Positions 45,057-64,000 of a DNA stretch of 64,000 nt are shown here, in pieces (position 1 is the stretch's first letter; each line of letters starts with the position of its first letter). The notes beneath the pieces were generated by a model that saw nothing but the letters and a program-made list of their open reading frames with translations, had not been told where the DNA came from and made no database searches. The stretch is from Colwellia sp. RSH04 (GTDB lineage: Bacteria > Pseudomonadota > Gammaproteobacteria > Enterobacterales > Alteromonadaceae): the NCBI RefSeq assembly GCF_003545765.1, contig NZ_QXIO01000005.1, forward strand, positions 186,001 through 250,000, written 5' to 3'. The position numbers and the translations under genes are program-made.

Positions 45057-45066
45057 TTGACGCAAC

Positions 45067-46413
45067 ATGATTAAGGGATTAAAACGTTTAAAGACGACTA
45101 ACGTAACAGTATTTGAATATGGACTGTTAAGCTCTAGCGCTAAGGCAGTTAAAAAAGATCATGTAGAAGCAATTACGCATGACGCTTTTGAGTATTTAAA
45201 AAAGTGTTGTTTATGCGACGAATCAGAGTCACGTTTTTTAAAACTAAAAATTGCACACGGCATGGAAGTGCTACAAGTTCAAAATTATGCTGGTGTTTTT
45301 TTATGCCCAGATGGTACTCAAATTGAAGTGCTGCCTAAAGTAGCAAAAGTTAACAATCAAGAAAGCGCAGCCAAGGAAGCTCAACAGTCTCTATTGATGA
45401 TGCTTAAGTCACTCAAACAGTTTCGCCATATTGAAACTGAAGTCGCGAGTATTCAAAAGCAGAAAATGCCCTTGATGGAGATTTTTATTTCTCAGTTTTT
45501 AAATTCAGTGAATGGCCTCATTAAGAAAGGAATCAGAAGTGACTATGTTCGAGAACAAAGCAATAACACCTTTTTAAAAGGTAAGTTGCTTCATACCCAA
45601 CAACTAAAACACAACTTTATTAATCGTCACAAGTTCTATGTAGAGTATGACGCTTATTTAGTGGATAGAGCGGAAAACCGACTCATTCATTCAGCTCTTA
45701 AGTCAGTCGCCTCATATACTAGTGTTAACAAGAGTAAAAAGCTATCTCAGGAACTGCTTTTTGCTTTTGAAGAAGTGCCTCTAAGTACAAACTACAAGAA
45801 TGATTTTTCTAGTGTAAAAGTTCAGAGGGGCATGCAACATTATGAAGTGCCGTTAAGTTGGGCAAGGCTTGTATTGGAGGGCTATTCACCTCAGTCAATG
45901 CTAGGTGAGAATAATGCTTATTCGTTGTTATTTCCGATGGAGGCCGTGTTTGAAAGCTTTGTTGCTAAGTACTTAAAGAAACATCTGCCACCGTCATTGA
46001 AGGTATTATCTCAAGTTCAGTCTAAATCGTTAGTAAGTTATGGCGATAAAAACTATTTTCGTTTGAAGCCTGACCTTTATGTAACAGAGCTAAAAGTTGC
46101 GCACACTGTTTTAGATACCAAGTGGAAGTTAATAGACCAGAACAAATCAGCAGGAAAAGATAAGTTCGGCTTATCGCAAAGCGACTTTTATCAAATGCTT
46201 GGCTATGGACACAAATATCTTGAGTCTACAGGTAGCTTAGTACTGATATACCCTAAAACCGAAAGTTTTGATAAACCATTTGAGCATAGCTTTAATTATG
46301 ATGACGACAGTAAATTAAAACTTTGGGTCGTGCCTTTTGATGTAAGCCCTAATAGAAATGATAATAACGGTGAACGAATCGATTTAGCCTTTATTGGTAT
46401 TAATAAAGGCTAG
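45067..46413 (+). CDS. mcrC: McrC, nuclease subunit of type IV McrBC restriction system
   Basis: 448 aa. An N-terminal McrB-interaction region is followed by a C-terminal PD-(D/E)XK nuclease: KPDLYV at about residue 336 and DTKWK at about residue 350, then a YQMLGYGHKY helix. McrBC cleaves DNA carrying methylated or otherwise modified cytosines. The gene itself is intact, but activity depends on McrB, which is frameshifted here. Confidence 0.92.
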   Translation: MIKGLKRLKTTNVTVFEYGLLSSSAKAVKKDHVEAITHDAFEYLKKCCLCDESESRFLKLKIAHGMEVLQVQNYAGVFLCPDGTQIEVLPKVAKVNNQESAAKEAQQSLLMMLKSLKQFRHIETEVASIQKQKMPLMEIFISQFLNSVNGLIKKGIRSDYVREQSNNTFLKGKLLHTQQLKHNFINRHKFYVEYDAYLVDRAENRLIHSALKSVASYTSVNKSKKLSQELLFAFEEVPLSTNYKNDFSSVKVQRGMQHYEVPLSWARLVLEGYSPQSMLGENNAYSLLFPMEAVFESFVAKYLKKHLPPSLKVLSQVQSKSLVSYGDKNYFRLKPDLYVTELKVAHTVLDTKWKLIDQNKSAGKDKFGLSQSDFYQMLGYGHKYLESTGSLVLIYPKTESFDKPFEHSFNYDDDSKLKLWVVPFDVSPNRNDNNGERIDLAFIGINKG

Positions 46414-49141: not shown

Positions 49142-49361
49142 GATTATGGTTCTTCTATAATTAACAGTTCAACTTAGGCGTTATTGTAGGGTATCCGTGT
49201 CTTAATTCGTCTTTTCTATTTAACAAAGACACGTTTACGTTAAATAGTGACCCTGAATTGTTTGTTCGAGCCTAGCTTTAATAATTATAATCAATACGTG
49301 GCGAAGACAAAGTATGAAAACATTGTGCTACTATAGAACTATGTAGTTTAGAGTGTTTTTT

Positions 49362-50498
49362 ATGATTGACGTTTTTATATCGATGATGGCAATTTCTATT
49401 GCTATCTTTACGTTGTTACTGCTTACTTTTCAAGCGCCATCACCGTCTAAAAGCACATTAATGCTTGTGTTGTTGTGTTTACTTTTCTTATCATTCGGCC
49501 CTATTGTTTTTGCGTTCATTCCAACACTAAAGCAACTTTATATTAGTGCGCTTCCATTACTGTTTTTTACGCTGTTGCCTGCATTATGGTTTTATCATGA
49601 GGCATTGATTGCAGAGGGACATTGGTTTTGGCAGTGGAGTATGTGGAAGCATTTCACTCCATTACCAGCTGCTTTGTTACTCGGTATCGCCATTTTTTTA
49701 CTGTCGAGTACTACGTTTAATGAGATGTTCTTTTCTGATTATGTAGGTGATGAACTATGGGTAAGTATTCTTTCTATTGCTTTCTTTGTTGCTGTAATGG
49801 GTTGGTGCTTATTGAGTTTTATATATGTTGTAAAACTTTTGTTACGTACAGCGCACTATAGGCAGCGGTTAAAAGAGGTGTACTCAAATGAGCAGGGGAA
49901 AAGTCTTAATTGGCTAAGCGGTACCTTGTTACTTATCATTTTTACTTGGATTTATGCGCTAACGGCGCTAGTTTTTGGTGACACATTGAATAATATTGGC
50001 TTGTCTGAAACAGGTGTACTGTTGCTACTTATGGGGATTGTATGGATTATATCTGCTAATGGGTTGATTCAGCGCCCAGGGTTTGAAGAATCGTCTCTTC
50101 CTGAACAGGCATCGCAACCTCAACACAAGAAAACGTATGAGCGTTCGGCATTAACAGATATCGATTTATTAAATATTGCTGAAAAATTAACCGTTGCAAT
50201 AAATAGCGACAATGCTCACCTTGAGCACGACTTAACATTAGCTAAACTCTCAGCATTAATTGGTGAGCAACCGCAATATGTATCACAGACATTGTCACAG
50301 CACCTAAATACAACATTTTTTGATTTTATTAACTTTGCTAGAATTGACGATGCAAAGCTCATGCTGATTGAAAGTAACAAATCGGTTCTTAATATATCGC
50401 TTGAAACGGGGTTTAATTCACGTTCATCTTTCTATAAAGCGTTTAAGCAATTTACTGGTTTAACACCTAGTCAATATCGAAAAACACAAAGTTCATAA
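49362..50498 (+). CDS. Membrane-anchored AraC-family transcriptional regulator
   Basis: About 378 aa from the ATG at 49362 (an in-frame GTG lies three codons upstream). The N-terminal 230 residues hold about seven hydrophobic segments. The C-terminal 110 residues form an AraC HTH domain: LTLAKLSALIGEQPQYVSQTLSQHL and the second helix pair ISLETGFNSRSSFYKAFKQFTGLTPSQYR. Such membrane-bound AraC proteins sense signals through the membrane part. The likely target is the divergent membrane-protein gene. Confidence 0.88.
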   Translation: MIDVFISMMAISIAIFTLLLLTFQAPSPSKSTLMLVLLCLLFLSFGPIVFAFIPTLKQLYISALPLLFFTLLPALWFYHEALIAEGHWFWQWSMWKHFTPLPAALLLGIAIFLLSSTTFNEMFFSDYVGDELWVSILSIAFFVAVMGWCLLSFIYVVKLLLRTAHYRQRLKEVYSNEQGKSLNWLSGTLLLIIFTWIYALTALVFGDTLNNIGLSETGVLLLLMGIVWIISANGLIQRPGFEESSLPEQASQPQHKKTYERSALTDIDLLNIAEKLTVAINSDNAHLEHDLTLAKLSALIGEQPQYVSQTLSQHLNTTFFDFINFARIDDAKLMLIESNKSVLNISLETGFNSRSSFYKAFKQFTGLTPSQYRKTQSS

Positions 50499-50916: not shown

Positions 50917-52701
50917 CTAATTCATTGCAAATGAAAAGTTATAGTTTTTAAAGCTACAGTAGCCTTTTACAGTTTCACCAACTTTAATTGCACCGTAACC
51001 ACTCTTTGCGTTTGAGCTTTTTTCGACATTGACATGAATTTTGTGATTATTCCAACTGTCACTAGCATTATAACGTTGAGAGTTACTTCTACACAGTACT
51101 TCAGTCAATGTTTTAAATTTATCACCCGTAAAAATGCTAGTAATATTGTCTGGTATTTTTATTGACTCTTGTGCAGGTTTTTTCCACTTAGCTATGTTGA
51201 TTAATAATTTTTGCTCAGAAATAGTCGCAATATCTCCATAAGTCATATAGTGAATACTCGTTTTACTTTTATCTTTAGGCTGGGCTTTGGTGAGTTGTTT
51301 ATTTTCAATGATAAATACACCGCCTTGACCTATGACCTCCATTAATGGTGAGTTGTCGGCGGAGTTTTTCACAATAAGCGCCGTTGCTTCATCAACACCA
51401 AAAGCGAACGAAGCTTTTGTATCTAATAAAAGTTTTGCAAGACGGCCTTGTCGACCTCTTTCAGAAAAGTGTGTATCCATAATTCCCCAATGAAATAGTC
51501 CTAAACCACCCGTTGAGTTAAACGTTAAATCATTATTGAGAATATCTTTTGGGCAAGTTTCAGACTTTTGACAGCCCTCTGTCGGAAGGATATCCCCCTT
51601 GCTTCCTCGAATAATTGCTGTATTACTTTGGCCGTTAGTAATCATTACGGTTTTGTTTTTATTAAACTCTCCACCAGACATTACTGCGGTACCTGCACTG
51701 GTGCCACCAATAATAAGCTGATTATTTTTGAGTTTTTCTTTAATAATTTGTAATGCTTTACTGTCTGAGCCATCTGCATTTTTAAAAGCTTTAACCGTAA
51801 GAGATTGATCCCCTCCGTTTATAAATATGCCATCAGCTTGAGATATAGCGTTGTTTATTGAAGCGGGTAATAAGCAAGCTTCTAATTGCTTTGCAGTTAA
51901 ATCAGGATAAATAAGCTCTCTATTAACAGAGCCTTGAATTTCAGCTCTTACCTTAGGGATATTTTTACACACCTCATCACGAGAGCCAGTTTGTTGCATT
52001 AAAGCATTAAGCGTAGCATCTAGCGGTAACCAGTTTGCGTTAGCACCTGCTTGGTTGAATGCTGTTTGATAGAAGTCTGCTGCTTCAAAAGGGTCTCGTG
52101 CAGAAGCTGTCAGCACAATGACGTTAGGGGATTCATTGTTACTTATCTTTTTAGCATGAGTAACAAATTCATGATAGATTTGAGTAGAAAATACATTCTT
52201 AGAATTAGCTAAATCAACATATTCTTTCAAACGCTCGCCAGTTTTATTATTAATTACTTTTTGTTCTAAACAATCTAGCAAAGTATAATATTCACGATCA
52301 CTCAATTGCCTAATAATTTGCTTTCTATCATATTTTTTTAGTCTTGTTTTTAGGCTTTTTAAAGAAACAGCGTCTTGTTCATTTTGGAAAGTAGCTCGCT
52401 TTAAAAGTTTAACTACATTATTTTTAGTCGCTTCTCCTGAGTCACTTTGCCAATTTTCTTTAACTAAATGAATGGATTTTGGGTCAATTTTATATCGATT
52501 GCCTGTTTTTATTGTTTTTATTGTTTTTAATGCGCTCATTTCTTTTAACGCATTATTATTACAGTTATTTTTGGCTATTGATGTGCAGGTTTTTAAGCCT
52601 CCACCGACGAGGAATAATACGCCAGCGTCTTTTGTGTTTTTTGCGTAAGATGGCGGCGTTATCAGCGAAGATAGCATTAAAATAGTGGTTATTCGTTTCA
52701 T
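50917..52701 (-). CDS. Secreted cyanophycinase-family peptidase (S51)
   Basis: 594 aa from the ATG at 52701, where a signal peptide begins (MKRITTILMLSSLITPPSYA). Cyanophycinase signatures: LFLVGGGLK (29-37), NGGDQSL (295-301), nucleophile Ser335 in GGTSAGTAVMSGG and His411 in DTHFSERGRQGRL. Between the first strand and VIVLTASARDP (from 194) there is an insertion of about 150 residues, and beyond about 510 a C-terminal extension; both are absent from the 270-aa cytoplasmic CphB. The family cleaves cyanophycin to beta-Asp-Arg. Divergent from a TonB receptor and near an IadA homologue. Confidence 0.88.
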   Translation of the reverse strand: MKRITTILMLSSLITPPSYAKNTKDAGVLFLVGGGLKTCTSIAKNNCNNNALKEMSALKTIKTIKTGNRYKIDPKSIHLVKENWQSDSGEATKNNVVKLLKRATFQNEQDAVSLKSLKTRLKKYDRKQIIRQLSDREYYTLLDCLEQKVINNKTGERLKEYVDLANSKNVFSTQIYHEFVTHAKKISNNESPNVIVLTASARDPFEAADFYQTAFNQAGANANWLPLDATLNALMQQTGSRDEVCKNIPKVRAEIQGSVNRELIYPDLTAKQLEACLLPASINNAISQADGIFINGGDQSLTVKAFKNADGSDSKALQIIKEKLKNNQLIIGGTSAGTAVMSGGEFNKNKTVMITNGQSNTAIIRGSKGDILPTEGCQKSETCPKDILNNDLTFNSTGGLGLFHWGIMDTHFSERGRQGRLAKLLLDTKASFAFGVDEATALIVKNSADNSPLMEVIGQGGVFIIENKQLTKAQPKDKSKTSIHYMTYGDIATISEQKLLINIAKWKKPAQESIKIPDNITSIFTGDKFKTLTEVLCRSNSQRYNASDSWNNHKIHVNVEKSSNAKSGYGAIKVGETVKGYCSFKNYNFSFAMN

Positions 52702-52740
52702 TTCTCTAGTTTCCAAAAATTGAGTGTTCGGCAAAAACAT

Positions 52741-53106
52741 TCAACATTAAAAGTTAAAATACTGTTGACAACCAATTACGACAGCGGTATTTATAAATAA
52801 GCAAATTTTAAAAGAGTTTGCGGCAAACAAACTTTTTTATGAAACGTTAGGCAACCAAGACCTTTTATATATGTACAAGAAAGCATTCGCACTTACAACA
52901 TATACTTATCAAAACTACTATCTTTCGGAGTGGTTTGACGAGTAAACACTAGAAAACAATTATTTTGTTTTCTGGACGTTAGATCTCGTTTTCTATCCAT
53001 CCACACAATTCAAAAATTATTTTAGCTCTTTATCCAAAGTGACATTTGTCTTTATGGCATTGTTTATTTTGGTTATGTTAAATTTATAAAATCTGAGAAT
53101 TAAATT
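52741..53106. promoter_or_regulatory. Divergent control region of the S51 peptidase and TonB receptor genes
   Basis: About 400 bp (52702-53106) between the two divergent starts, with no ORF. It contains a 23-bp palindrome (52952-52974) and a terminator-like hairpin (about 52811-52837: AGTTTG / CAAACT and T6). Promoters for both genes should lie here. Confidence 0.6.
52952..52974. promoter_or_regulatory. Candidate operator palindrome
   Basis: AGAAAACAA-TTATT-TTGTTTTCT is a perfect 9-5-9 inverted repeat 132 bp before the TonB receptor start. A similar half-site (GTTTTCTA) occurs again at about 52989-52996. The size and symmetry fit a dimeric regulator site, plausibly for the LysR protein at the end of the locus, but this is inference. 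Confidence 0.5.
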
Positions 53107-56034
53107 ATGAAAGTTATTAAGCCTTCGTGTCTAGCTATGGCTGTTTGCAGTACTTTGCTGTCGCCAATTTATGTAAATGCTGCTGAGCAAAATGCCAGTG
53201 ATGAAAAGTCAGTTGAAAAAATAGTCGTTACCGGAAGTCGAATTAAAGGTGTTGACCTTGAAGGCAAGCAACCGCTTGTTGTCATTGATGCTGATGATAT
53301 TCGAAAGTCTGGAGCAACAAGTGTGTCAGAGTTGATGAGACAAATTAGCCAAACTCGTGGTGGTGAAGGTTCATTTAGCACAAGTGAAAGTGGTGCTACG
53401 TCAACATCTACGCCTGCTGGACAAGCAGCTGCATCGTTGAGAGGTTTAGGGCCTTCTTCTACGTTAACCTTGATTAATGGAAGACGCGTGGCCGCTAGCT
53501 CGTTTGCTTCTGGTACTCAAAACTTTGTCGATGTTAACAGTATTCCATTAGCTGCTATTGAAAGAATTGAAGTGCTAGCAACTGGGGCGTCAGCCATTTA
53601 TGGTGCTGATGCCGTTGCCGGTGTTATCAACTATATTTTGAAAAAAGACTACCAAGGTGCAGAGCTTAACCTGTCATACGGAAATAGCTTTGAATCGACC
53701 AATGAAGGAAAAATGAATGTAAACCTTGTATTAGGTACAGATTTAGCTGGTGGAAATTTAACAGTCTTTGCAGATTACTATAAGCGTGATGCATTTAGTG
53801 CCCAAGATAGAGACTTTACCAGAACACCATCTTTAGTTAATTCTTATTCATATTTACCTAAAGATACGCCAAATATTTATTATTATTCTGCTCGCTCAGG
53901 TAACGAACTAGGTAACCCTGATTGTAAGTCTGAATTTGTTACCACTGAGTTTGGTGAAGATATTTGTGCTTATTATCGCAATGAAGATGATATGTTAAAC
54001 AGCGACTTAGAAACAGCATCCTTAGGTTTCATTTACTCAAAAGAAATTGGTGATTTGGTTTGGGATACCGATTTTTTTTACTCTCACAGTGACTCTCAAG
54101 CAATCTCTGCTCCTGCTGCGATTAACCAGGTTGATGATAGTGAAGGTCCTTGGGCGAATGAAACTTCATTAGCTGTTTTTTCTGATGAAGTTCGAAACGA
54201 TTTACTCGATCAAATGTATATAGATCCATACGATACTATTGCTGGACGTGAATTATGGGGCTTTAGATATGATGCTCGTTTTGGCACGCCAAGAACAGTC
54301 GAGGTTCAAACTAATGCGTTACGCATAGTGTCAGGCTTATCAGGTGATATTGGTGAGTGGGAGTGGGAATCTGCCGTCACATTATCAAAATCAGAGTCTG
54401 AGCAAAAAGCGAGTGCAGGTATCTATAATCGCTACAAATATCATGCGTTACTTTCAGGTGAATTATGCAGTGATGGTTCAATTGCAGATTATAATCAAAG
54501 CAGTGATAACCTTTCGTGTGGTGCTGGTGATTTACTTGCTATGTATAACCCTTTCTTAGCGGGAGATAGTGCAAATAATGATTTACTAGCAATGTCTCAA
54601 GAAATACCTACCCGTGATGGTGAAAGTACCGTATATGGTTGGGATGCAAGAGTGTCGGGTGACTTATTTGAATTTAATGATCAAATCATTAGAGCCGCGT
54701 TTGGTATTGAAGCAAGAAAAGAAGAGATTACCGATATTCCATCACTAAATGCTCGAGCTAGAGCTGAAAATGAATATTTAGTGGATGTCTTTGGTTTTGG
54801 TTCTAGTTTATCTGAAGCTGACCGTTTCCAATGGGGTATGTTTGCTGAATTAAACATACCACTTAATGATATCGTAGAGCTTCAATTAGCTGGTCGCTAT
54901 GATGATTATGATGACTTTGGCGATACCTTTAACCCTAAAGTAGCTATTACAGTAAGACCCATTGACGAGCTAATTCTAAGAGCCTCTTGGTCTACGTCTT
55001 TCAGAGCGCCGTCGTTAACACAAGCTGGGGTTAAATTAAGAACAACGACTGCAACATACGACTGTGGTGCAAACCAATCAGTGGCTGATTTATATTGTGA
55101 AGGGGCAGGCGATCAAAGAAGTCCTAATGTATTAGAGCTTGGTAACGCAAATCTTCGTGCAGAGGAGTCGGAATCTATCAGTGTTGGTTTTGCTTATAGT
55201 CCGACAGATAATACAACTTTGACTGTTGATTATTGGAATTTTCAGCACGATGGATTAGTTGATACCGATATGACAGGCGCATTAGCTAGTGCAACGAATG
55301 ATGCTTCTTTAAGACATTGTGGCATAGTCCCTGAGGGAGAAACAGGGATTTCATATGAAGAAGACTTATGCTTAGTGAGCGATATTAATGGTTTAACCAT
55401 TGAAGACGATGGCGCTAACTTATCTGAAATTTTAGATGCATGGGTTGACTTTGATGACCCTCGATATGCTGAGTTACCTTTGTATCGTGATCATATTATT
55501 CAGCTAGAAAATACAGGTGAACAAAATGTATCAGGTGTAGATTTAAGTTTCGTTCACAGTGTTGTATTTTCTCAAGGTGAACTCAGCTTTAGTGTAGATG
55601 CAACACATTACCTTGAATTCGAACGTAATAAAGCTGGCTCATTCGAACTTGAGGAGTTAATTGGCACATGGCGATATCCTGAAAATATTGCTATGGCGAG
55701 AGTCGCTTGGTCTGGTGACGCTTTTTATACCAGCTTAACGGTAGATTATACAAGCGAGTATCAAGATGACATTGAAGGTTTGAAAAATCGACAAATCGAA
55801 GAGATTGATGAACTAGGTTTTCTTGATGAAAATGGGCAGCGAGATGTCGATTCTTGGTTAACGGTTCGAGCAAATATTGGTTATGATTTTGAAAATATGA
55901 ATATTAATTTTACAATCAATAACTTGTTAAATGAAGAACCACCAGTGGCTTACGGTTCAAGTCGAGGGTTTGATTCATTAAACCATGATGCTTTAGGTGC
56001 TAATTATCGTTTATCAATGACTTATTTCTTTTAA
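53107..56034 (+). CDS. TonB-dependent receptor 1 of the beta-aspartyl peptide locus
   Basis: 975 aa. Signal peptide MKVIKPSCLAMAVCSTLLSPIYVNA; TonB box-like EKIVVTGSRI; plug domain (about 45-165: VSELMRQISQTRGG ... LINGRRVAASSF ... IERIEVLATGASAIYGADAVAGVINYI); then a 22-strand barrel ending in YRLSMTYFF. Large receptors of this type import peptides or oligomers across the outer membrane. It is divergent from the S51 peptidase and upstream of the transporter and dipeptidase genes, so cyanophycin fragments are the best guess for substrate. Confidence 0.92.
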   Translation: MKVIKPSCLAMAVCSTLLSPIYVNAAEQNASDEKSVEKIVVTGSRIKGVDLEGKQPLVVIDADDIRKSGATSVSELMRQISQTRGGEGSFSTSESGATSTSTPAGQAAASLRGLGPSSTLTLINGRRVAASSFASGTQNFVDVNSIPLAAIERIEVLATGASAIYGADAVAGVINYILKKDYQGAELNLSYGNSFESTNEGKMNVNLVLGTDLAGGNLTVFADYYKRDAFSAQDRDFTRTPSLVNSYSYLPKDTPNIYYYSARSGNELGNPDCKSEFVTTEFGEDICAYYRNEDDMLNSDLETASLGFIYSKEIGDLVWDTDFFYSHSDSQAISAPAAINQVDDSEGPWANETSLAVFSDEVRNDLLDQMYIDPYDTIAGRELWGFRYDARFGTPRTVEVQTNALRIVSGLSGDIGEWEWESAVTLSKSESEQKASAGIYNRYKYHALLSGELCSDGSIADYNQSSDNLSCGAGDLLAMYNPFLAGDSANNDLLAMSQEIPTRDGESTVYGWDARVSGDLFEFNDQIIRAAFGIEARKEEITDIPSLNARARAENEYLVDVFGFGSSLSEADRFQWGMFAELNIPLNDIVELQLAGRYDDYDDFGDTFNPKVAITVRPIDELILRASWSTSFRAPSLTQAGVKLRTTTATYDCGANQSVADLYCEGAGDQRSPNVLELGNANLRAEESESISVGFAYSPTDNTTLTVDYWNFQHDGLVDTDMTGALASATNDASLRHCGIVPEGETGISYEEDLCLVSDINGLTIEDDGANLSEILDAWVDFDDPRYAELPLYRDHIIQLENTGEQNVSGVDLSFVHSVVFSQGELSFSVDATHYLEFERNKAGSFELEELIGTWRYPENIAMARVAWSGDAFYTSLTVDYTSEYQDDIEGLKNRQIEEIDELGFLDENGQRDVDSWLTVRANIGYDFENMNINFTINNLLNEEPPVAYGSSRGFDSLNHDALGANYRLSMTYFF

Positions 56035-56056
56035 TTAATGACTATTACTTAATAGC

Positions 56057-56095
56057 AGTGCTAAGTGAAAGCCATTGAGCTTTCGCTTAAGCACT
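56057..56095. repeat. Hairpin between receptor 1 and the transporter gene
   Basis: AGTGCTAAGTGAAAGC pairs with GCTTTCGCTTAAGCACT (one bulge, one G-T pair), loop of 6 nt. No T tract follows. It may lower or stabilise part of the transcript between a highly expressed receptor and the downstream transporter, as intergenic hairpins often do. Confidence 0.55.
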
Positions 56096-56145
56096 ATACT
56101 GAGAATATTCTCTAACCATTATTTACATAAAGAAGTAACGTTATA

Positions 56146-57651
56146 ATGACTATAGAAAAAAGCGATAACTCGCCATTAGACAAGACGACTCAGCCATCTA
56201 CAAACTTAGTGTCTGAAAAGTCGATGCCTGATGCCTTTGTTATTTTATTTTTTATTGTGATGTTAGCTGCTATTGCGACACACTTTATTCCTGCAGGCTT
56301 CTACCAAGTAGAAGTTGACCCTCTAACAAATAAGACAACGTTAATTGCTGATAGTTTCCAGTTTGCTGAGCAAAGTGATGGTGTGCCCTTATTTGCAGAG
56401 CAGGGCAACATTGGTTTCTTGAATTTTGCTTTTGAAGGCATGGTTTCTGGAGATAAGTGGGGATCAGCGATTGGCGTCATGATGTTTATTATTTTAACGG
56501 GTGGCGCCTTTGGCATTATTATGCAAACGCGCGCCATTGATAATGGCATTATGGCATTAATCACAAAGACTCAAAAAATGGAACAAGCTTTCATTCCTAT
56601 TTTGTTTGTTTTGTTTTCATTTGCTGGCGCTATTTTTGGTATGGGAGAAGAGGCTATTGCCTTTTGTATTGTCCTTTTGCCCTTAATGCGCGCTATTGGT
56701 TATGACGGTATCACCACGGTGCTAGTCACTTATGTTGCAACCCAAATTGGTTTTGCAACCTCTTGGATGAACCCTTTTAGTGTTGCCATAGCACAAGGTA
56801 TTGCCGGTTTACCTTTAATGTCGGCTTTAGAGTTTCGGGTTGGGTTATGGAGCGTTTTTACGTTATTGGGTGTTGTTTTTACGATGCGATATGCAATGAA
56901 AATAAAACAAAACCCAAGCTTATCTCCTTGTTTTCAATCGAAAGAGCATGTTCAGAACACTTCACAACATTCAATAAAATATAGTCGAGTCGATACTTTA
57001 CTGCTGTGTACTTTTCTATTGGGGATTGTTTGGGTTATATGGGGAGTTATTGCTCGAGGTTATTATATTCCTGAAATCGCAAGCCAGTTTTTTACTCTGG
57101 GTTGTGCTATTGGCATCATTGCTGTCATTAGTAAGCGGTTGACTATGAATGAAGTAGCTGATGCATTTAAATCGGGCGCGAAGGATTTATTACCTGCAGC
57201 AATGATTGTGGGTATGGCAAAAGGGATCGTGATTATTCTTGGTGGAGATCAAGCCTCTGAACCCTCGGTGTTAAATACGGTTTTGTATTATGCAGGTCAA
57301 TTATTAGCCGAATTACCTCAGACGGTATCTGCCGTGTGTATGTTCCTCTTTCAATCGATATTTAATTTTTTTATTGCGTCAGGTTCGGGGCAAGCAGCAT
57401 TAACAATGCCCATTATGGCGCCTTTGGCTGATATTATCGGTTTGCAACGTCAAATTGCTGTATTGGCTTTTCAGCTCGGTGACGGCCTAACAAATATTAT
57501 TATTCCGACCTCAGCAGCACTTATTGGCTGTTTAGGTGTCACGAATATTGATTGGTTTGTCTGGGCAAAATTTATATGGCGTTTCATGTTGTTATTAGCA
57601 AGTGTTGCAATTGGTTCCATGGTTTTAGCTGTAGTTATCAATGTAACGTAA
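56146..57651 (+). CDS. YfcC-family inner-membrane transporter
   Basis: 501 aa with about 12 membrane segments. IPAGFYQVEVDP near residue 50, the GGAFGIIMQTRAID motif, GMGEEAIAFCIVLLPLMRAIGYD and the C-terminal IASGSGQAALTMPIMAPLAD are YfcC/DcuC-like. Members of this group carry arginine/ornithine or dipeptide-like substrates. Nine bp before iadA, so co-translated as a unit; an uptake role for beta-Asp dipeptide or arginine is inferred from this. Confidence 0.85.
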   Translation: MTIEKSDNSPLDKTTQPSTNLVSEKSMPDAFVILFFIVMLAAIATHFIPAGFYQVEVDPLTNKTTLIADSFQFAEQSDGVPLFAEQGNIGFLNFAFEGMVSGDKWGSAIGVMMFIILTGGAFGIIMQTRAIDNGIMALITKTQKMEQAFIPILFVLFSFAGAIFGMGEEAIAFCIVLLPLMRAIGYDGITTVLVTYVATQIGFATSWMNPFSVAIAQGIAGLPLMSALEFRVGLWSVFTLLGVVFTMRYAMKIKQNPSLSPCFQSKEHVQNTSQHSIKYSRVDTLLLCTFLLGIVWVIWGVIARGYYIPEIASQFFTLGCAIGIIAVISKRLTMNEVADAFKSGAKDLLPAAMIVGMAKGIVIILGGDQASEPSVLNTVLYYAGQLLAELPQTVSAVCMFLFQSIFNFFIASGSGQAALTMPIMAPLADIIGLQRQIAVLAFQLGDGLTNIIIPTSAALIGCLGVTNIDWFVWAKFIWRFMLLLASVAIGSMVLAVVINVT

Positions 57652-57660
57652 AGGATATTT

Positions 57661-58827
57661 ATGAAGTTAATTAGAAATGCTCAAGTGTTTTCTCCAAAGT
57701 CACTTGGTCAAATGGATGTATTAATTGCAGGAAATAAAATTATAGCAATTGAACGTGATCTATCAGAGTTTTCCAACCAGTTTGTTGATGAAATTGATGC
57801 TAAAGGGCAGATTTTAACGCCTGGTTTTGTGGATTCTTTAGTGCATATTACCGGTGGTGGTGGCGAAGGTGGCTATGCGACTAGAACGCCAGAAATGAAT
57901 ATTGAAGAAGCGTTTATTGGTGGTGTTACCACGGTAATTGGTGCTTTAGGGACTGATGCAGAAACCCGAAGTCTAGAGAACTTGTTAGCTAAAGCATATG
58001 GGCTTGAAGAGCAAGGGCTTTCGGTTTATTGCTACACAGGCTCTTATCATTTTCCAATGGGGTCCATTACTGAGTCAATTAAGCGTGACATTATGTTAAT
58101 TGAGCGATTTATTGGTGTTGGAGAGGTCGCTATTGCCGATCATCGTAGTTCACAGATGAGTGTCAGCGAGCTTTCACGAGTTGCTTCTGAAGCACGCGTG
58201 GCAGGAATGCTTTCTGGTAAAGCAGGCATCGTTAGTATCCATGTGGGTGATGAAGATGAAAAACTCTCTTTACTAACACAAGTTGTTGAGCAATCTGATA
58301 TTCCTGTTAAACAATTTTATCCGACTCATATCAATCGGAGTAAAGCGTTATTAGAAGCTGGCATTTTTTATGCTGAACAAGGCGGAATGTTAGATTTTAC
58401 TACTAGTACAACAGAGCAAATTATTGAGCAAGGCGAAATACCAGCAGCTAAAGCACTCGCTTTAGCGTTAGAAAAAGGTATCGATGTCGCTCAATTAACC
58501 ATGAGCTCTGATGGTAACGCTAGCTTACCTACCTTCGATAATAAAGGGCAATTGATTGAACTTGAAGTTGGCAGAGTCAGCAGCTTGCATCAATCCATGG
58601 TTGACGCAGTGCTAATTCATCAAGTACCGCTAGAATTAGCATTAGCAAGTATTACTCAATCACCTGCTGCTATTTTATCCTTAAAAAACAAAGGGAAGGT
58701 AAAAGTAGGTATGGATGCTGATATTAATTTGCTAGATGCTGAAACACTTAAAGTGCAAGCAGTTTTCGCGAAAGGTCAACAGGTTGTTAAAGATGAAAAC
58801 GTGTTAATTAAAGCACCATATAGCTAA
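57661..58827 (+). CDS. iadA: Isoaspartyl dipeptidase (IadA family, altered metal site)
   Basis: 388-aa amidohydrolase aligned over its length to E. coli IadA. Conserved: GGGGE (Glu69, alpha-amino binding), Tyr129, DHRS, His194 (SIHVGD), His223 and Arg226 (PTHINR), Asp284 (SSDGN). Changed: the HxH metal motif is L-V-H (Leu60, His62), and the carboxylated Lys position is Glu155 (GVGEVAIADHRS). It cleaves beta-Asp-X dipeptides in the cytoplasm; in this context beta-Asp-Arg from cyanophycin is the likely substrate. AAAGGA precedes the ATG. Confidence 0.88.
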   Translation: MKLIRNAQVFSPKSLGQMDVLIAGNKIIAIERDLSEFSNQFVDEIDAKGQILTPGFVDSLVHITGGGGEGGYATRTPEMNIEEAFIGGVTTVIGALGTDAETRSLENLLAKAYGLEEQGLSVYCYTGSYHFPMGSITESIKRDIMLIERFIGVGEVAIADHRSSQMSVSELSRVASEARVAGMLSGKAGIVSIHVGDEDEKLSLLTQVVEQSDIPVKQFYPTHINRSKALLEAGIFYAEQGGMLDFTTSTTEQIIEQGEIPAAKALALALEKGIDVAQLTMSSDGNASLPTFDNKGQLIELEVGRVSSLHQSMVDAVLIHQVPLELALASITQSPAAILSLKNKGKVKVGMDADINLLDAETLKVQAVFAKGQQVVKDENVLIKAPYS

Positions 58828-59010
58828 CTCATTTTTTAGTTAAAAAAGATACGTTTTAATTCATCTCTAAGTTGAATTATTAAATGAAAATAATCACGAC
58901 CAAATCTTAAAGGGGAGGGTTGTCTAAATTTTGTTAAACCTTTAAGACAGATAAAACTATAAATACAAATAAAAACAAAAAAACATCAATACAATATTGA
59001 GGAAGTAAAC

Positions 59011-61449
59011 ATGAAAACATCGAAAAAAGAATACTTTAAAAAAACGGCATTATGCCTTGCGATCTCAACAGTAATTTCGTCGCCTAGTGTGGCCTTTGCT
59101 GAAGAAGTTGAGGCGAAAATTGAGGGTATCGAAAGAATTAATGTTACTGCTTCTCGACGAGTATCGAGTATTCAAGAAGCACCAATGAATATTACTGCGT
59201 TAGATAGCGACGTAATGAAAGATCAAAACATTACCGCTGCTGAAGATGTGGCAAGATGGGTGCCTGGTTTAACCATCTCAGATCAAGGTGGGCGTGAAGG
59301 GGCTTCTATTATTGTTCGTGGTTTAAATACCAATTCATCAGAACGAAGTGCTGATGGTGGAACTGTTGCAACTTATCTTGGTGAAATGCCATTTAACGCA
59401 GATCTGCGTTTAACCGATATTGAAAGAGTCGAAGTTTTAATCGGTCCTCAGGGAACGTTATATGGTGCAGGTACCCTAGGTGGTGCTATTCGCTATATGT
59501 TAAAGCAACCTGAGCTTGATATAACTGAAGGTGAAGTTACAGGTGATATATTTACGTTAAGTGAAAGTGAAGGCACTGGAGCAGAAGCGGGGCTTATTTT
59601 TAATACTCCTATCATTGAAGATGTATTGGCGGTTAGGGCAAGTGTTAATTATTTTGATACACCAGGTTATGTTGATTACACGCATGTGGTGAGAGAGCCA
59701 GGAGTGTCGCTTCCTGATCCTGACTGGAGTAATGAAGCAGCCATTAATGAAAACTTAAAGAGTGTTGCCGATGTAAACGACGAGCAAATTACTACAGCTC
59801 GACTATCTGTTCGTTGGCAACCAACAGACTGGTTTGATAGTACGTTGAATTATTTCTATCAAAAACAAGAAAATGGCGGTAACTCAATTGTTCAGCATAA
59901 CACCATCAATAACGCTAATGGTATTGCCAACAGAATTAATGAATATGATTCTGCTTATCGTGTGGAAGAGCCAAATGAGAAAGAAGATGATTTACTTAGT
60001 TTAGAGCTTAAAGCCGATTTAGGTTTTGCTGAGTTAGTTTCTGCATCGGGGTGGTCTAGTTATGACCAAGTTGGTCAACGAGATCAAACCGATCTTCTCT
60101 ATGATATTTGGAGCGGCTACGCAGACTTTCCTTCATTTGTTGCCTATACCCGAGATACTGGCGTTGAAGATAGCTTTACGCAGGAAATTCGTTTAGTGTC
60201 ACAAAGTGATTCAGCTTTAAGTTGGATTGTTGGCGGCTATTACAACAATACAGAGAGTTCATCAGATGATAGAGAATATACGCCAGGTTTAACTGACTAT
60301 TGGGGTGGCGGTATTCCCAATGTTGAGAAAGATCTTGAGTATATTGCGCTTAGTTCATCTGAGGTAACAGAATCTGCTCTGTTTGGTGAATTGTCTTATC
60401 AAGTAAACGATAAGTTGAGTTTAACCGTTGGAGCAAGATTTTATGAATATGAAATCACTTCAAGTTCAGGCTCTGCTACGCCATTATATTCAGGAGATTT
60501 TGAAGAGTTAGATCAAATTGAATTTGACCACTCTAAAGCTGAAGATGACGGTAATTTATTTAAGTTCAATGCAAGTTATCAATTATCTGAAGATATGTTG
60601 GCATATTTTACGGTCAGTGAAGGTTTTAGGATTGGTGGTGCAAATGGTTTAAAAGACTGCCCAGATGAATTACCCGAGCAACAAATTGTTTGTGCACTAC
60701 CTAATGAAGTTGGTTATGAGCCAGATACCACAACGAACTATGAGTTAGGTTTTAAGAGCACTTGGTTAAGTAATAGAATTCATTTTAATGCAGCTGTATT
60801 TAATGTTGATTGGGAAGATGCACAAATAGCTGCTGTTTCAGTGAATGGGCAAGAGAACATTACGTCTAATGCCGGTGCCGCTAATTCCAAAGGTACCGAA
60901 ATATCAACAAGAGCAATGCTGACAGACTCTATCATAGCTTACGCAACATACTCATACGCAAAGGCTGAACTCACTGAAGATGCACCTTATTTATTTGGCG
61001 TGAAAGATGAGCAGGGGACAGCGCTTCAGGATTACTACGATGGCAGCAAAGGCGATCGTTTACCGGGTGCACCAGAGCATCAGTTTTCTTTAGGTGTTAG
61101 TTATGAAGCAGAGGTTTTCGATGATAAAATGCTTATTATTAACTACGGTTTAACAGCGCAAAGTGATGTGTATAGTAAAGTGGGCTTAAAGGCTGATGGT
61201 GAAATACTTTCAGGTTACGCTTTGAATAATATATCGGCGAAACTTGAAGGTGGAGACTGGTCTGCAACATTGTATATTGACAATATGTTTAACAAACATG
61301 CAAAAACATCAGTACGCCGTGATAAATCATGGGCTGGAATGGCGAAGTTTGAACAAGAAAACCGAGCGCTTCCAGAATTACAGCGTGTGTATGGCCATTA
61401 TGTGACTAAACCTTTAACCGTAGGTGTAAAATTTAATTACGTTTTTTAG
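59011..61449 (+). CDS. TonB-dependent receptor 2 of the locus
   Basis: 812 aa, different subfamily from receptor 1. Signal peptide through SSPSVAFAEE; TonB box-like IERINVTASRRVSSIQEAP; plug with IIVRGLNTNSSERS ... IERVEVLIGPQGTLYGAGTLGGAIRYM; barrel ending in TVGVKFNYVF. GAGGAAG precedes the ATG. Receptors of this subtype commonly sit before a TPR-sulfotransferase gene in marine gammaproteobacteria and sphingomonads, as here. Substrate not assignable from sequence. Confidence 0.92.
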   Translation: MKTSKKEYFKKTALCLAISTVISSPSVAFAEEVEAKIEGIERINVTASRRVSSIQEAPMNITALDSDVMKDQNITAAEDVARWVPGLTISDQGGREGASIIVRGLNTNSSERSADGGTVATYLGEMPFNADLRLTDIERVEVLIGPQGTLYGAGTLGGAIRYMLKQPELDITEGEVTGDIFTLSESEGTGAEAGLIFNTPIIEDVLAVRASVNYFDTPGYVDYTHVVREPGVSLPDPDWSNEAAINENLKSVADVNDEQITTARLSVRWQPTDWFDSTLNYFYQKQENGGNSIVQHNTINNANGIANRINEYDSAYRVEEPNEKEDDLLSLELKADLGFAELVSASGWSSYDQVGQRDQTDLLYDIWSGYADFPSFVAYTRDTGVEDSFTQEIRLVSQSDSALSWIVGGYYNNTESSSDDREYTPGLTDYWGGGIPNVEKDLEYIALSSSEVTESALFGELSYQVNDKLSLTVGARFYEYEITSSSGSATPLYSGDFEELDQIEFDHSKAEDDGNLFKFNASYQLSEDMLAYFTVSEGFRIGGANGLKDCPDELPEQQIVCALPNEVGYEPDTTTNYELGFKSTWLSNRIHFNAAVFNVDWEDAQIAAVSVNGQENITSNAGAANSKGTEISTRAMLTDSIIAYATYSYAKAELTEDAPYLFGVKDEQGTALQDYYDGSKGDRLPGAPEHQFSLGVSYEAEVFDDKMLIINYGLTAQSDVYSKVGLKADGEILSGYALNNISAKLEGGDWSATLYIDNMFNKHAKTSVRRDKSWAGMAKFEQENRALPELQRVYGHYVTKPLTVGVKFNYVF

Positions 61450-61472
61450 GGATTAACTCCCGTTCTGTTTCA

Positions 61473-61502
61473 ACTTCCCCCTTTAATAGGGGGAGTTTTA
61501 TT
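61473..61502 (+). terminator. Terminator-like hairpin overlapping the ribosome site of the next gene
   Basis: ACTTCCCCCT (61473-61482) / AGGGGGAGT (61488-61496), then TTTTATTTT. The right arm contains the AGGGGGAG that serves as ribosome site for the TTG start at 61503. Confidence 0.7.
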
Positions 61503-63092
61503 TTGAGTGTTTTAAACGATATGACCCCTAAGCAGTTACATGCAAAAGCAGTAGAAGCATTAAATCATCAGAATATAAAGCAAGCCCATGCGTACCTAGT
61601 GCAGTTAGTTAAACTTGTGCCTGATCATGCTGACGGTTATTTTTTGCTCGCGATGGTAAATATCAATGTTGGACAACTTGTTAAAGCAAGTAAACTAATT
61701 GAAAAAGCATTAAGTTTTAATGATCTTATAGAGTACAGAGCGCATTTAGCTAAATGTTATGCCTTAATGGGCAAGCTCACACAAGCGAAAAGTTGTATTG
61801 AGAAGGTTGATGTAAAAAATATTAGCAAGGCATTAACCGCTGATACCATAGGGGTTGTTCTTAGTCGCATAGGGCTTCATGAACGCGCAATAGTCTTTTT
61901 TCAACAGGCGATAAAAATTGATAGCAGTAATGCAGATTATTTTTATAATTTTGGTGTGTCGAGTAAATTTTTAGGAGATTTACAGCAAGCTAGAATAGCC
62001 TATGAAAAAGCGATTGCTATTAATCCGATGCAAGTAGCTGCGCATTTTGCTTTATCTGGGTTAGGTCAGATAACTTCGCAAAGTAATCATATTGACCGTT
62101 TATTAACACTAAAGCGTCAGCCATTAAACGCTGATGAACAGTTATATATTGGGCATGCTCTGGCAAAAGAATATGAAGAGATAAATGATTATGATCAGGC
62201 GTTTTATAGTTTACTGTATGCTAAAAAGGCCAAAAGTAAGCAAGTAGGCTCTACTCGTTCTCGAGATAAAAAAATGTTTAATCAGCTTTATCAGTATATT
62301 GACTCGGGTCGACTAGAACAGAAAAAGGGGGTTGTTGATGACTCGCCAATATTTATTGTGGGTATGCCTAGAACCGGCACTACTGTCGTTGAGCGAATGT
62401 TAACCCGTCATGAAGAAGTTCACTCAGCAGGCGAACTCCATGATTTTCCTTTGTTAACCAAACAATTGAGTGAAGAAAATAGCCCACACTTACTAAATGA
62501 TGATGTTTTACGTGCAGCAGAGCGCATAAATTATGAACTATTAGGCAAAACATACATTCAAAAGGCAAAGTCAGTTGCTAATTGCCCATCGAAGTTTGTC
62601 GATAAATTGCCATTAAATGTGCTTTACACGCAACTAATTTTGACTGCATTACCGAATGCTAAAATTATTTGTTTAGAAAGAGAACCTTTAGATACCATTA
62701 TGAGTAATTTTAGGCAACTATTTGCGTCAAACTATTCTTTGTATCACCACAGCTTAGATATCAATGACTTATGCCGTTTTTATATGCAGTTCAAAAAGCT
62801 AATATCAATATATCAAAATAAATACCCTAATAACTTCATCAAAATAAGCTATGAGCGACTCGTTGAATCACCTCGTGTTGTTGGAGAGGAGGTATTTAAT
62901 TTTTGTGATTTATCTTGGCAAGATGATTATGCATTAATTGAGAACAATCATCGCCCTGTTGACACTGCTAGTGCTATTCAAGTAAGACAGCCTATAGTAA
63001 GTAGTAATATTGGCAACTGGAAGCATTATAAAAATCACCTTGAAGAAATAAAGAACTCTTTACTTACTGAGAATTATAACCTTAATAAATAA
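61503..63092 (+). CDS. TPR repeat-containing sulfotransferase family protein
   Basis: 529 aa from a TTG start (ATG 61521 is an alternative). Residues 1 to about 230 are TPR repeats (HADGYFLLAMVNINVGQLVKAS; IGLHERAIVFFQQAIKIDSSNADYFYNFG). From about 280 a sulfotransferase domain starts with the PAPS-binding loop FIVGMPRTGTTVVERML and later CLEREPLDTIMSNFRQLF and KISYERLVESP. No signal peptide, so cytoplasmic. Receptor-linked TPR-sulfotransferases are common but their acceptor is unknown. Confidence 0.88.
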   Translation: MSVLNDMTPKQLHAKAVEALNHQNIKQAHAYLVQLVKLVPDHADGYFLLAMVNINVGQLVKASKLIEKALSFNDLIEYRAHLAKCYALMGKLTQAKSCIEKVDVKNISKALTADTIGVVLSRIGLHERAIVFFQQAIKIDSSNADYFYNFGVSSKFLGDLQQARIAYEKAIAINPMQVAAHFALSGLGQITSQSNHIDRLLTLKRQPLNADEQLYIGHALAKEYEEINDYDQAFYSLLYAKKAKSKQVGSTRSRDKKMFNQLYQYIDSGRLEQKKGVVDDSPIFIVGMPRTGTTVVERMLTRHEEVHSAGELHDFPLLTKQLSEENSPHLLNDDVLRAAERINYELLGKTYIQKAKSVANCPSKFVDKLPLNVLYTQLILTALPNAKIICLEREPLDTIMSNFRQLFASNYSLYHHSLDINDLCRFYMQFKKLISIYQNKYPNNFIKISYERLVESPRVVGEEVFNFCDLSWQDDYALIENNHRPVDTASAIQVRQPIVSSNIGNWKHYKNHLEEIKNSLLTENYNLNK

Positions 63093-63196
63093 TACCATTC
63101 TGCATAAAGAAGTAACCTTATAGAATGACATAGGCGAGGTTTAAAGGCTTATATTTCATTGGTTTACAGGCATAAGTCAAAGGCTCAATTTAATAA

Positions 63197-64000
63197 ATGA
63201 ATATAGAAACAAAGTGGTTGAAAGATTTTATCGTATTATCTGAAACGTTAAATTTTTCAAGAGCATCAAAATTAAGGTTTGTTACTCAACCAGCTTTTAG
63301 TCGTCGAATTAAAGCGTTAGAGAGTAATATAAACTGTGAGCTATTTAATCGAGGCACACACCCCGTTGCGTTAACAGAAAAAGGTTTGGCATTTAAAGCA
63401 ATTGCTTCAAAAATGTTAACTGAGCTTGAAGAGGGCATTTCGCGATTAAATGAAAATAATCATTGTTCCTTACCCATAAAATTTGCCACTACTCATACTT
63501 TATCTACCGGGATATTCCCCCTTATTGCTCAACATTTATCGGGTTTTGAACCGAATGTTTCTACGGAATTAAAAATTGCTGACTCTGATGATTGCATTGA
63601 CATGTTAGCGAACAACACTTGTGACTTTCTTCTCTCTTTTAGTGACCCTGAATTAGAGGTAAAGAAAAAAGATTCGCTTTTTATTGGAAAAGTTAGGCTG
63701 CTACCTGTTTGTATTCCTAATAAAGAAGGCGAACCACTGCACAACTTAACTCAGAGTAGTCACTCAATACCGTATTTAGCCTATCAAGCTAATATTTACT
63801 TAGGAAGAGTGGTAAATAATTTAATTGCTAATAATTTGATGAAAGTTAATGTAGTAAAAAGGTTAGAGTCATCCATGGCTGATAACTTAAAAATGATGGC
63901 AATTAAAGGTGTTGGTATCGCTTGGATACCTGAATATAGTATTCAAGAAGCCCTTAAAGATAAATCTTTGGTTATTTGTGGTGATAAAGAATGGCAACCA
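63197..64000 (+). CDS. LysR-type regulator, HypT/YjiE-like (truncated by window end)
   Basis: First 268 codons, open at the right edge. The opening NIETKWLKDFIVLSETLNFSRASKLRFVTQPAFSRRIKALE is an LTTR HTH and matches E. coli HypT (YjiE, NIETKWLYDF...) in the parts I recall; GVGIAWIPEYSIQEAL also matches HypT (GIAWLPEYAIQ). In E. coli, yjiE is next to iadA. The last 30-40 residues lie beyond the window. Probably regulates the beta-aspartyl peptide locus. Confidence 0.88.
   Translation, partial: MNIETKWLKDFIVLSETLNFSRASKLRFVTQPAFSRRIKALESNINCELFNRGTHPVALTEKGLAFKAIASKMLTELEEGISRLNENNHCSLPIKFATTHTLSTGIFPLIAQHLSGFEPNVSTELKIADSDDCIDMLANNTCDFLLSFSDPELEVKKKDSLFIGKVRLLPVCIPNKEGEPLHNLTQSSHSIPYLAYQANIYLGRVVNNLIANNLMKVNVVKRLESSMADNLKMMAIKGVGIAWIPEYSIQEALKDKSLVICGDKEWQP

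Follow-up and report, generated by a model that had tools for sequence, protein, structure and literature searches.

Cyanophycin is the nitrogen-storage polymer of cyanobacteria, and a stretch of 64,000 nucleotides from the genome of Colwellia sp. RSH04 (contig NZ_QXIO01000005.1, positions 186,001 to 250,000; hereafter the window) raises the question of how a marine bacterium might take this polymer up from outside and by what signal it would switch on the genes for doing so. Towards the end of the window, a gene for an S51-family protein (S51a) is divergent from genes for a TonB-dependent receptor (TBDT1), a YfcC-type transporter and an IadA-family dipeptidase. An earlier sequence-only reading had joined these four with a second TonB-dependent receptor (TBDT2), a TPR-sulfotransferase and a HypT-like LysR regulator into one locus for the use of cyanophycin or beta-aspartyl dipeptides. 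Profile searches with Pfam and NCBIfam models recover all seven genes in the order and at the positions given there and, save for the HypT label, in the families named. Between S51a and TBDT1 we find in addition a short open reading frame (ORF), referred to as the leader. On the sequence evidence set out below, we consider it probable that the S51 gene and the leader-headed TBDT1-YfcC-IadA operon together serve to scavenge external cyanophycin, with the leader likely acting as a ribosome-arrest sensor that switches the operon on.

The locus has a clear precedent. "Cyanophycin utilization locus", for a cluster of cyanophycinase genes, iadA and a transporter gene, is a published term (Ben Hania et al., as quoted in PMC10206079), and of 52 genomes with genes for both a cyanophycinase and a dipeptidase and without cphA1, 45 have the two clustered (PMC10206079). 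In the Colwellia genome a cyanophycinase-like gene, an isoaspartyl dipeptidase gene and a transporter gene are likewise clustered, with S51a below the equivalog cut-off discussed further down, and no cphA gene scores above cut-off (best cphA-model score 103 against 850 bits); the reading as external scavenging, also in genomes without cphA1, is shared with the known locus (PMC10206079). Here, however, there are in addition a TonB receptor, YfcC, a large S51 protein with added segments, an IadA of a type with leucine in place of a metal-binding histidine (Leu type) and the leader, and the same genome holds a second leader-headed cyanophycinase-like gene (S51b). For the TonB receptor, too, there is an antecedent: in Citromicrobium sp. 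JLT1363 a TonB-dependent transporter gene lies near a cyanophycinase gene, and cyanophycin was proposed as its substrate (PMC3400609), although this is a single example and the passages of that paper on it mention neither IadA nor YfcC nor a leader. Cyanophycinase genes have also been noted in Pseudoalteromonas tunicata (PMC2536512) and Thalassotalea (PMC7564069). We therefore see in the cluster a predicted TonB-based variant of the known scavenging locus, with the leader peptide and its regulon as the new element. The novelty claimed for the locus in the sequence-only reading is thus reduced, since both the scavenging locus and the TonB adjacency were already in print; what appears new, the leader regulon and the Leu-type IadA, had escaped that reading, as had S51b.

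The extent of the unit was assessed in the loci of S51a relatives. An alignment of 22 S51a homologues led to 166 relatives in named genomes, of which the best 80 were kept with 10 kb flanks (21 genera named in titles), and their neighbours were counted by tblastn with 13 proteins. Among these best 80 of 166, YfcC is present in 74, TBDT1 in 67 and IadA in 67, numbers that are lowered by contig ends cutting some of the loci. All other neighbours are rarer: a GGDEF sensor is found in 11 (weakly), a binding protein in two, S51b, an aspartase-like lyase (AspA, 39% identity) and LysR (weakly) in one each, and the sulfotransferase, AraC and ArgR in none. The grouping of S51, TBDT1, YfcC and IadA thus recurs in 80 loci amid flanking genes that vary between locus groups, which is beyond chance, and to this extent the uptake locus proposed earlier stands. 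Usually S51a is divergent from TBDT1-yfcC-iadA; all four genes lie on one strand in L050, L054, L056, L062 and L098, and TBDT1 is separate from yfcC-iadA in L074. In the four Shewanella loci TBDT1 shares no more than 32-33% identity, beside a YfcC of 75-77% identity, so the receptor slot is retained with a different receptor. YfcC and TBDT1 occur without IadA in five loci (L069, L079, L080, L083, L094); two of these have a same-strand neighbour that was tested (HlyD-type; beta-lactamase-fold), in the remaining three no gene on that strand lies there, and no replacement for IadA was found. Two further IadA-less loci, L028 and L073, are truncated by contig ends.

Cyanophycinases are the best solved relatives of S51a by sequence, and they also take places 1 to 9 among the fold matches of its AlphaFold2 model (pLDDT 88.5; template modelling scores by target 0.70-0.73), with dipeptidase E ranking below them. 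Residue roles were taken from the catalytic and pocket residues of CphE and CphB (PMC3235067). The resulting set, Q312, S348, D422, T423, H424, R428, R430, R433 and E451, is invariant in 80/80 relatives, and all nine residues are present in S51b. As in Pseudomonas CphE, it holds a Ser/His/Glu set, a Gln, an Asp, an Arg-x-Arg-x-x-Arg pocket and, at T423, the CphE-type Thr that replaces a Gln of CphB; unlike CphE, S51a is 607 rather than 419 residues long (CphE gene, 1260 bp), with added segments and conserved cysteines (PMC3235067). Cysteines 52, 60, 258, 289 and 396 are kept in all 80 relatives, 390 in 79, 550 in 77 and 595 in 70; together with a hydrophobic N-terminus after codon 14, recognised by eye, they may point to the predicted secretion. 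The predicted cyanophycin uptake locus of the sequence-only reading is supported by these nine residues, by the conserved gene set and by the absence of a cphA gene above cut-off.

The leader came to light through a 7-mer, GAGTGGT, which occurs on either strand in 53 of 59 divergent intergenic regions and pointed to a short ORF whose peptide ends in YLSEWFDE-stop. Defined by the pattern LSEW[FW][DN][EN]-stop, it is found in 74 of the 74 loci of the 80-locus sample that have YfcC or TBDT1. Of the six others, L020 has a leader before S51b and L063 has one at a contig end; L021, L042, L084 and L087 have none, and likewise lack YfcC, TBDT1 and IadA. This amounts to 79 copies in 1,608,244 bases, and the first labelled gene 3' of them is TBDT1 in 67 cases, YfcC in 10 (among them L064, where tblastn puts TBDT1 in the gap), S51b in one and a contig end in one. 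Leader and gene share a strand, and the distance between them has a median of 143.5 bp. Although only the final codons are set by the pattern, all 92 distinct ORFs have an ATG exactly 24 codons before the stop and no internal stop. They end in TAG (64) or TAA (28) and never in TGA, compared with 536 TAA, 156 TAG and 150 TGA in the 842 ORFs of at least 200 residues in the 80 loci. Over codons 17-24 the synonymous fraction of codon differences is 0.807; column permutations give 23% on average and 58% at most, and 0/500 reach the observed value. By this measure the leader is under strong protein-level constraint. No Pfam, NCBIfam or PHROGs family matches the peptide above cut-off (one Pfam match to the L022 leader, at E 0.076, was taken as chance), nothing in Rfam reaches its gathering score, and no report of it was found in the literature searched, which covers few subscription journals.

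The leader is specific in its placement. The 4.15 Mb genome has an 18-base leader core at two sites, one 5' of TBDT1 and the other 5' of S51b, and the control gave no matches; in the window the core occurs once, and in 100 shuffles not at all. Within the host genus, sampled in 39 genomes, a leader precedes TBDT1 in all four that bear S51a. Across 394 genomes of the order the core gave 39 matches in 35 genomes, and 36 of these matches were inspected (G165, G258 and G266 left out), yielding 31 full leaders and five chance matches that lack LSE. The first 31 matches inspected contained 26 full leaders: 15 before TBDT1, one before YfcC, two before S51b and eight in a genus labelled g43. The g43 leaders share one peptide, followed by a binding-protein-sized gene in six cases and by no called gene in two; in one of these loci (L210, genome G325) the leader is followed by a lysine/arginine/ornithine-type binding protein and then a Leu-type IadA, with ABC genes. 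S51b is present in 5/394 order genomes and has an LSEWFD leader in all five, two of them ending LSEWFDL; the AspA-ArgR pair that lies beside S51b in Colwellia is not seen next to it in two of these genomes, G281 and G403. In G403 there are three leaders: one heads S51b, one a TBDT1-YfcC-IadA-S51a operon, and one a further TonB receptor of 1130 residues (L208:4331-8077) that has no other unit gene in the 16 kb read. A second leader stands 5' of a second receptor in L038 and L048, and the two parts of the operon that is split in L074 (TBDT1; yfcC-iadA) are each headed by one. In the order sample the leader is present in 18/18 loci with S51a, TBDT1, YfcC and Leu-type IadA, and in 0/7 loci with the His-type IadA described next. 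A 27-base pattern found it in none of 365 genomes outside the order, and none was found in viral contigs.

The IadA of the locus has Leu60 (codon 57838-57840) where five aligned solved IadAs have the first His of the HxH motif, judged against the metal ligands given in PMC10206079. Leucine occupies this position in all 65 aligned IadAs of the loci, and the other nine sites checked are kept. The protein passes the TIGR01975 cut-off and lacks the full binuclear ligand set, so that it counts as a relative of IadA by sequence rather than as an established binuclear enzyme. Amidohydrolases with one metal exist, and we infer a mononuclear site for the Leu type. In a sample of 197 order genomes in which IadA was chosen independently of S51, 42 genomes yielded 45 IadA genes, 38 of Leu type and seven of His type, and a tree of 102 sequences resolves them into two groups by type (support 0.99). 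Four of the seven His-type genes adjoin a short S51 protein; in the one locus tested with profile models (L164) this protein scores as a canonical cyanophycinase (270 against a cut-off of 126.6 bits), and a cyanophycin synthetase adjoins it (1137 against 850 bits). Among 37 Leu-type genes whose neighbours were read, 20 have S51 and YfcC, three have YfcC only and 14 have neither. No report of a Leu-type IadA or a mononuclear IadA site was found in the literature searched. As a separate observation made by eye, L151, L155 and L160 (genus g18) have a Leu-type IadA behind amino acid ABC importer-like genes and no leader.

Whether TBDT2, the sulfotransferase and the LysR regulator are integral parts of one larger cyanophycin locus, as the sequence-only reading had it, was examined in the genus sample. 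Full-length S51a is present in 4/39 genomes (four more give weak partial matches) and TBDT2 in 14/39. In all three genomes with both (the Colwellia genome itself, G000, and G037 and G038), TBDT2 and the sulfotransferase lie directly 3' of iadA; contig ends cutting the locus place TBDT2 and S51a on different contigs in G037 and G038. In G038 an ArgR 63% identical to that of Colwellia even follows the sulfotransferase directly (L241:7350-7805), and outside the genus a TBDT2 of 68% identity sits behind iadA in L024. On the other hand, the fourth S51a-bearing genome, G014, has the unit without the pair, and the pair stands alone in 11 genus genomes that lack S51a, with no IadA, adjoining TBDT1 or leader within the 12-19 kb read (pair loci L240, L241 and L243-L253; one of two copies read in G035). 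Of the 80 wider loci, five have a TBDT2, only that of L024 close and the other four 22-32% identical; none has the sulfotransferase, and the single LysR match is weak. Moreover, a terminator-like hairpin separates TBDT2 from the sulfotransferase. TBDT2 and the sulfotransferase are thus a conserved accessory pair in the genus, found mostly apart from the cyanophycin unit; being 3' of iadA in three of four genomes and alone in 11, they belong to the accessory genes of this lineage, and TBDT2 to those of L024 as well, rather than to the core. The inclusive locus is accordingly unlikely in our view, and the HypT label is withdrawn, as the full LysR protein scores 191.3 against the NF007488 equivalog cut-off of 301.

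From the gene set, the leader, its constraint, its placement and its specificity, which are read from sequence, we infer the following scheme of enzymatic and transport steps, arrest, Rho step and ligand. Cyanophycin would be broken down to beta-Asp-Arg by the S51 enzyme, a predicted secreted protein, either extracellularly or in the periplasm; TBDT1 would import beta-Asp-Arg or short oligomers over the outer membrane, YfcC would carry beta-Asp-Arg over the inner membrane, and cytoplasmic IadA would hydrolyse it to Asp and Arg. A cytoplasmic product, most likely beta-Asp-Arg, would then stall the nascent peptide ending in YLSEWFDE at a stop codon of the type read by release factor 1 (RF1), and the stalled ribosome would cover C-rich or hairpin-forming RNA downstream, letting RNA polymerase continue into TBDT1-yfcC-iadA. 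The content shared by the leader-headed operons suggests that the ligand may be either a beta-aspartyl dipeptide whose side chain is basic or the Arg released from it. Our preferred candidate is beta-Asp-Arg, which is specific to cyanophycin and would reach the cytoplasm through YfcC, with Arg or a derivative nearly as likely.

The layout of the leader is that of known arrest leaders, a short ORF before an operon, presumably translated to judge by its conservation, which runs up to the stop. In the presence of Trp, the 24-residue TnaC stalls at its stop codon and thereby conceals a Rho utilization (rut) site just downstream, and SpeFL senses ornithine and blocks RF1 (PMC8429421). The leader shares with them its position, with TnaC its length of 24 residues, and its stops are all readable by RF1 (PMC8429421, PMC7815308); their stop-codon stall and Rho access just downstream are putative here. 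It is unlike them in its unrelated sequence and in being tied to cyanophycin and beta-aspartyl genes. CruR, encoded by an upstream ORF of Bordetella bfrG, likewise precedes an operon for a TonB-dependent transporter and controls it by Rho-dependent termination, but is a copper-sensing protein of 145 residues with CXXC and RAPP motifs and no resemblance to YLSEWFDE (PMC9426467). The RNA may agree in part with such a scheme. The 42 nt 3' of the stop fold more stably than shuffled sequence, with a mean z of -1.41 and 67/101 sequences below -1, compared with -0.07 and 14/101 in an upstream control stretch. C exceeds G by +0.092 over the 60 nt after the stop as against -0.002 upstream, and is higher in 81/92. 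RF1-only stops, constraint up to the stop and C-rich RNA are consistent with the TnaC/SpeFL scheme, and a putative arrest leader of this kind is our best reading. The promoter-like pair seen 5' of the leader by eye, and also in L022, is not listed by the promoter scan because the scan rule wants a T at the end of the second hexamer. Separately, control of the unit by ArgR was considered and finds no support in binding sites: ArgR-like boxes are not enriched in 60 intergenic regions between S51a and TBDT1 (mean best score 7.28, shuffled 7.30), and the S51b-AspA gap is at chance level; the ArgR gene behind the sulfotransferase of G038 still hints at a possible link.

A number of observations weigh against this scheme. 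Both S51 proteins stay below the TIGR02069 equivalog cut-off of 126.6 (S51a 105.5, S51b 73.1), which is why we call S51a cyanophycinase-like; YfcC passes its family cut-off and carries the annotation of an antiporter for basic amino acids rather than that of a peptide importer; the IadA ligand set is incomplete, and 14/37 Leu-type IadAs have no S51 or YfcC nearby. Beta-Asp-Arg is small enough for porins, which leaves the need for TBDT1 unexplained, and loci without TBDT1 exist. In the order sample, five Leu-type IadA plus YfcC loci of this kind (L142, L145, L146, L150 and L162, the last a 4.8 kb contig) have no leader, and in g43 leaders head genes without a clear cyanophycinase, only weak S51 model matches being present. 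The leader counts overstate the number of independent events because the sequences are related, and since the reversed core gave 23 order-wide matches against 39 forward, the short core alone is weak proof and it is the LSEW context that discriminates. Finally, the post-stop hairpin is not universal (67/101), and alignment folding of 26 sequences revealed no shared RNA structure for it.

Some of these points would also fit a locus for isoaspartyl peptides from aged or deamidated protein, in which S51a is a general aspartyl/isoaspartyl peptidase and IadA a promiscuous dipeptidase. The IadAs of cyanophycin clusters are indeed promiscuous (PMC10206079), both S51 proteins miss the equivalog cut-off, and g43 combines IadA and leader without a clear cyanophycinase. 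Nevertheless, all cyanophycin-pocket residues are kept in the 80 S51a relatives, the fold matches place cyanophycinases above dipeptidase E, and the g43 leader is paired with an importer of Lys/Arg/Orn type, which points to basic side chains, so we hold this origin of the substrate to be improbable. We give similarly little credence to the leader being a classical attenuator that reads charged tRNA (e.g. for Tyr, Phe or Trp) by way of its aromatic codons, the nascent peptide binding no ligand: the peptide is rich in these residues, classical attenuators likewise have a short ORF ahead of the operon, and the best Rfam match is Thr_leader (19.5, far under its cut-off of 55), but conservation is strongest from LSEW-D/N-E to the stop rather than over a single repeated codon, most Tyr residues are missing from the S51b leaders although these keep LSEWFD, and intrinsic terminators follow the leader in only 9/92 cases. 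That the ORF encodes a small trans-acting signal, chaperone or modified peptide, as its protein-level constraint alone would allow, is very unlikely given a separate copy before each operon, even within one genome and for each half of L074, the same strand and short gap to the gene, and no maturation genes recurring in the locus clusters.

Beyond the cyanophycin-scavenging unit with its arrest sensor, the data permit a wider and more tentative proposal: that a new family of arrest leaders ending in ...YLSEW[F/W][D/N]E-stop senses beta-Asp-Arg, the isopeptide dipeptide of cyanophycin, and defines an Alteromonadales regulon whose IadA forms a separate clade with an altered, probably mononuclear metal site, the regulon putatively comprising the TonB receptor, YfcC, Leu-type IadA, secreted cyanophycinases and an Arg-type ABC importer. 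If true, this would allow the use of cyanophycin by marine bacteria to be recognised from their genomes, tie orphan TonB receptors to a substrate, and set the Leu-type IadA of scavenging loci apart from the His type beside cyanophycin synthetase.

Table 1. Positions of the features in the window and in the adjoining part of the contig.
Feature	Position	Strand	Basis or remark
S51a, cyanophycinase-like, 607 aa, predicted secreted	50917..52740	-	PF03575 34.9 bits (cut-off 23.9)
Promoter-like pair TTGACA - 17 nt - TATTTA, 5' of leader	52765..52793	+	read by eye
Leader ORF, 24 codons + stop, MYKKAFALTTYTYQNYYLSEWFDE	52871..52945	+	conservation, protein-level constraint
Hairpin directly 3' of leader stop	52949..52975	+	161-nt spacer, fold z -2.33
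TBDT1, TonB-dependent receptor	53107..56034	+	plug and barrel above Pfam cut-offs
YfcC-type inner-membrane transporter	56146..57651	+	NF008611 666 vs 500
IadA-family dipeptidase, Leu type	57661..58827	+	TIGR01975 459.6 vs 331.25
TBDT2, accessory TonB-dependent receptor of this lineage	59011..61449	+	3' of iadA in G000, G037, G038, L024
Terminator-like hairpin, strong, between TBDT2 and sulfotransferase	61472..61497	+	terminator scan
TPR-sulfotransferase, accessory, paired with TBDT2	61503..63092	+	adjoins TBDT2 in 14/14 TBDT2-bearing genomes of the genus
LysR regulator	from 63197, past window end		complete in extended contig stretch L004
S51b, second cyanophycinase-like protein, secreted (predicted), 464 aa, PPC + S51 domains	L004:8871-10265 (contig C42:253873-255264), outside window		
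Leader of S51b, LSEWFDE type	L004:10347-10430		
Aspartase-like lyase + ArgR paralogue, divergent from S51b	L004:10750-12707		

The 14 kb of contig beyond the window encode a propeller-GGDEF sensor, a small family-3 binding protein, S51b, the aspartase-like lyase and the ArgR paralogue, the last being one of three ArgR matches of a profile search in this genome. Upstream of S51a lies a gene for an AraC-type regulator with a hydrophobic N-terminal half (49353-50498), which is found in 0/80 related loci. Further upstream, at 42382-46413, are McrBC-like restriction genes, the first protein of which is, by eye, seemingly split across two overlapping frames.

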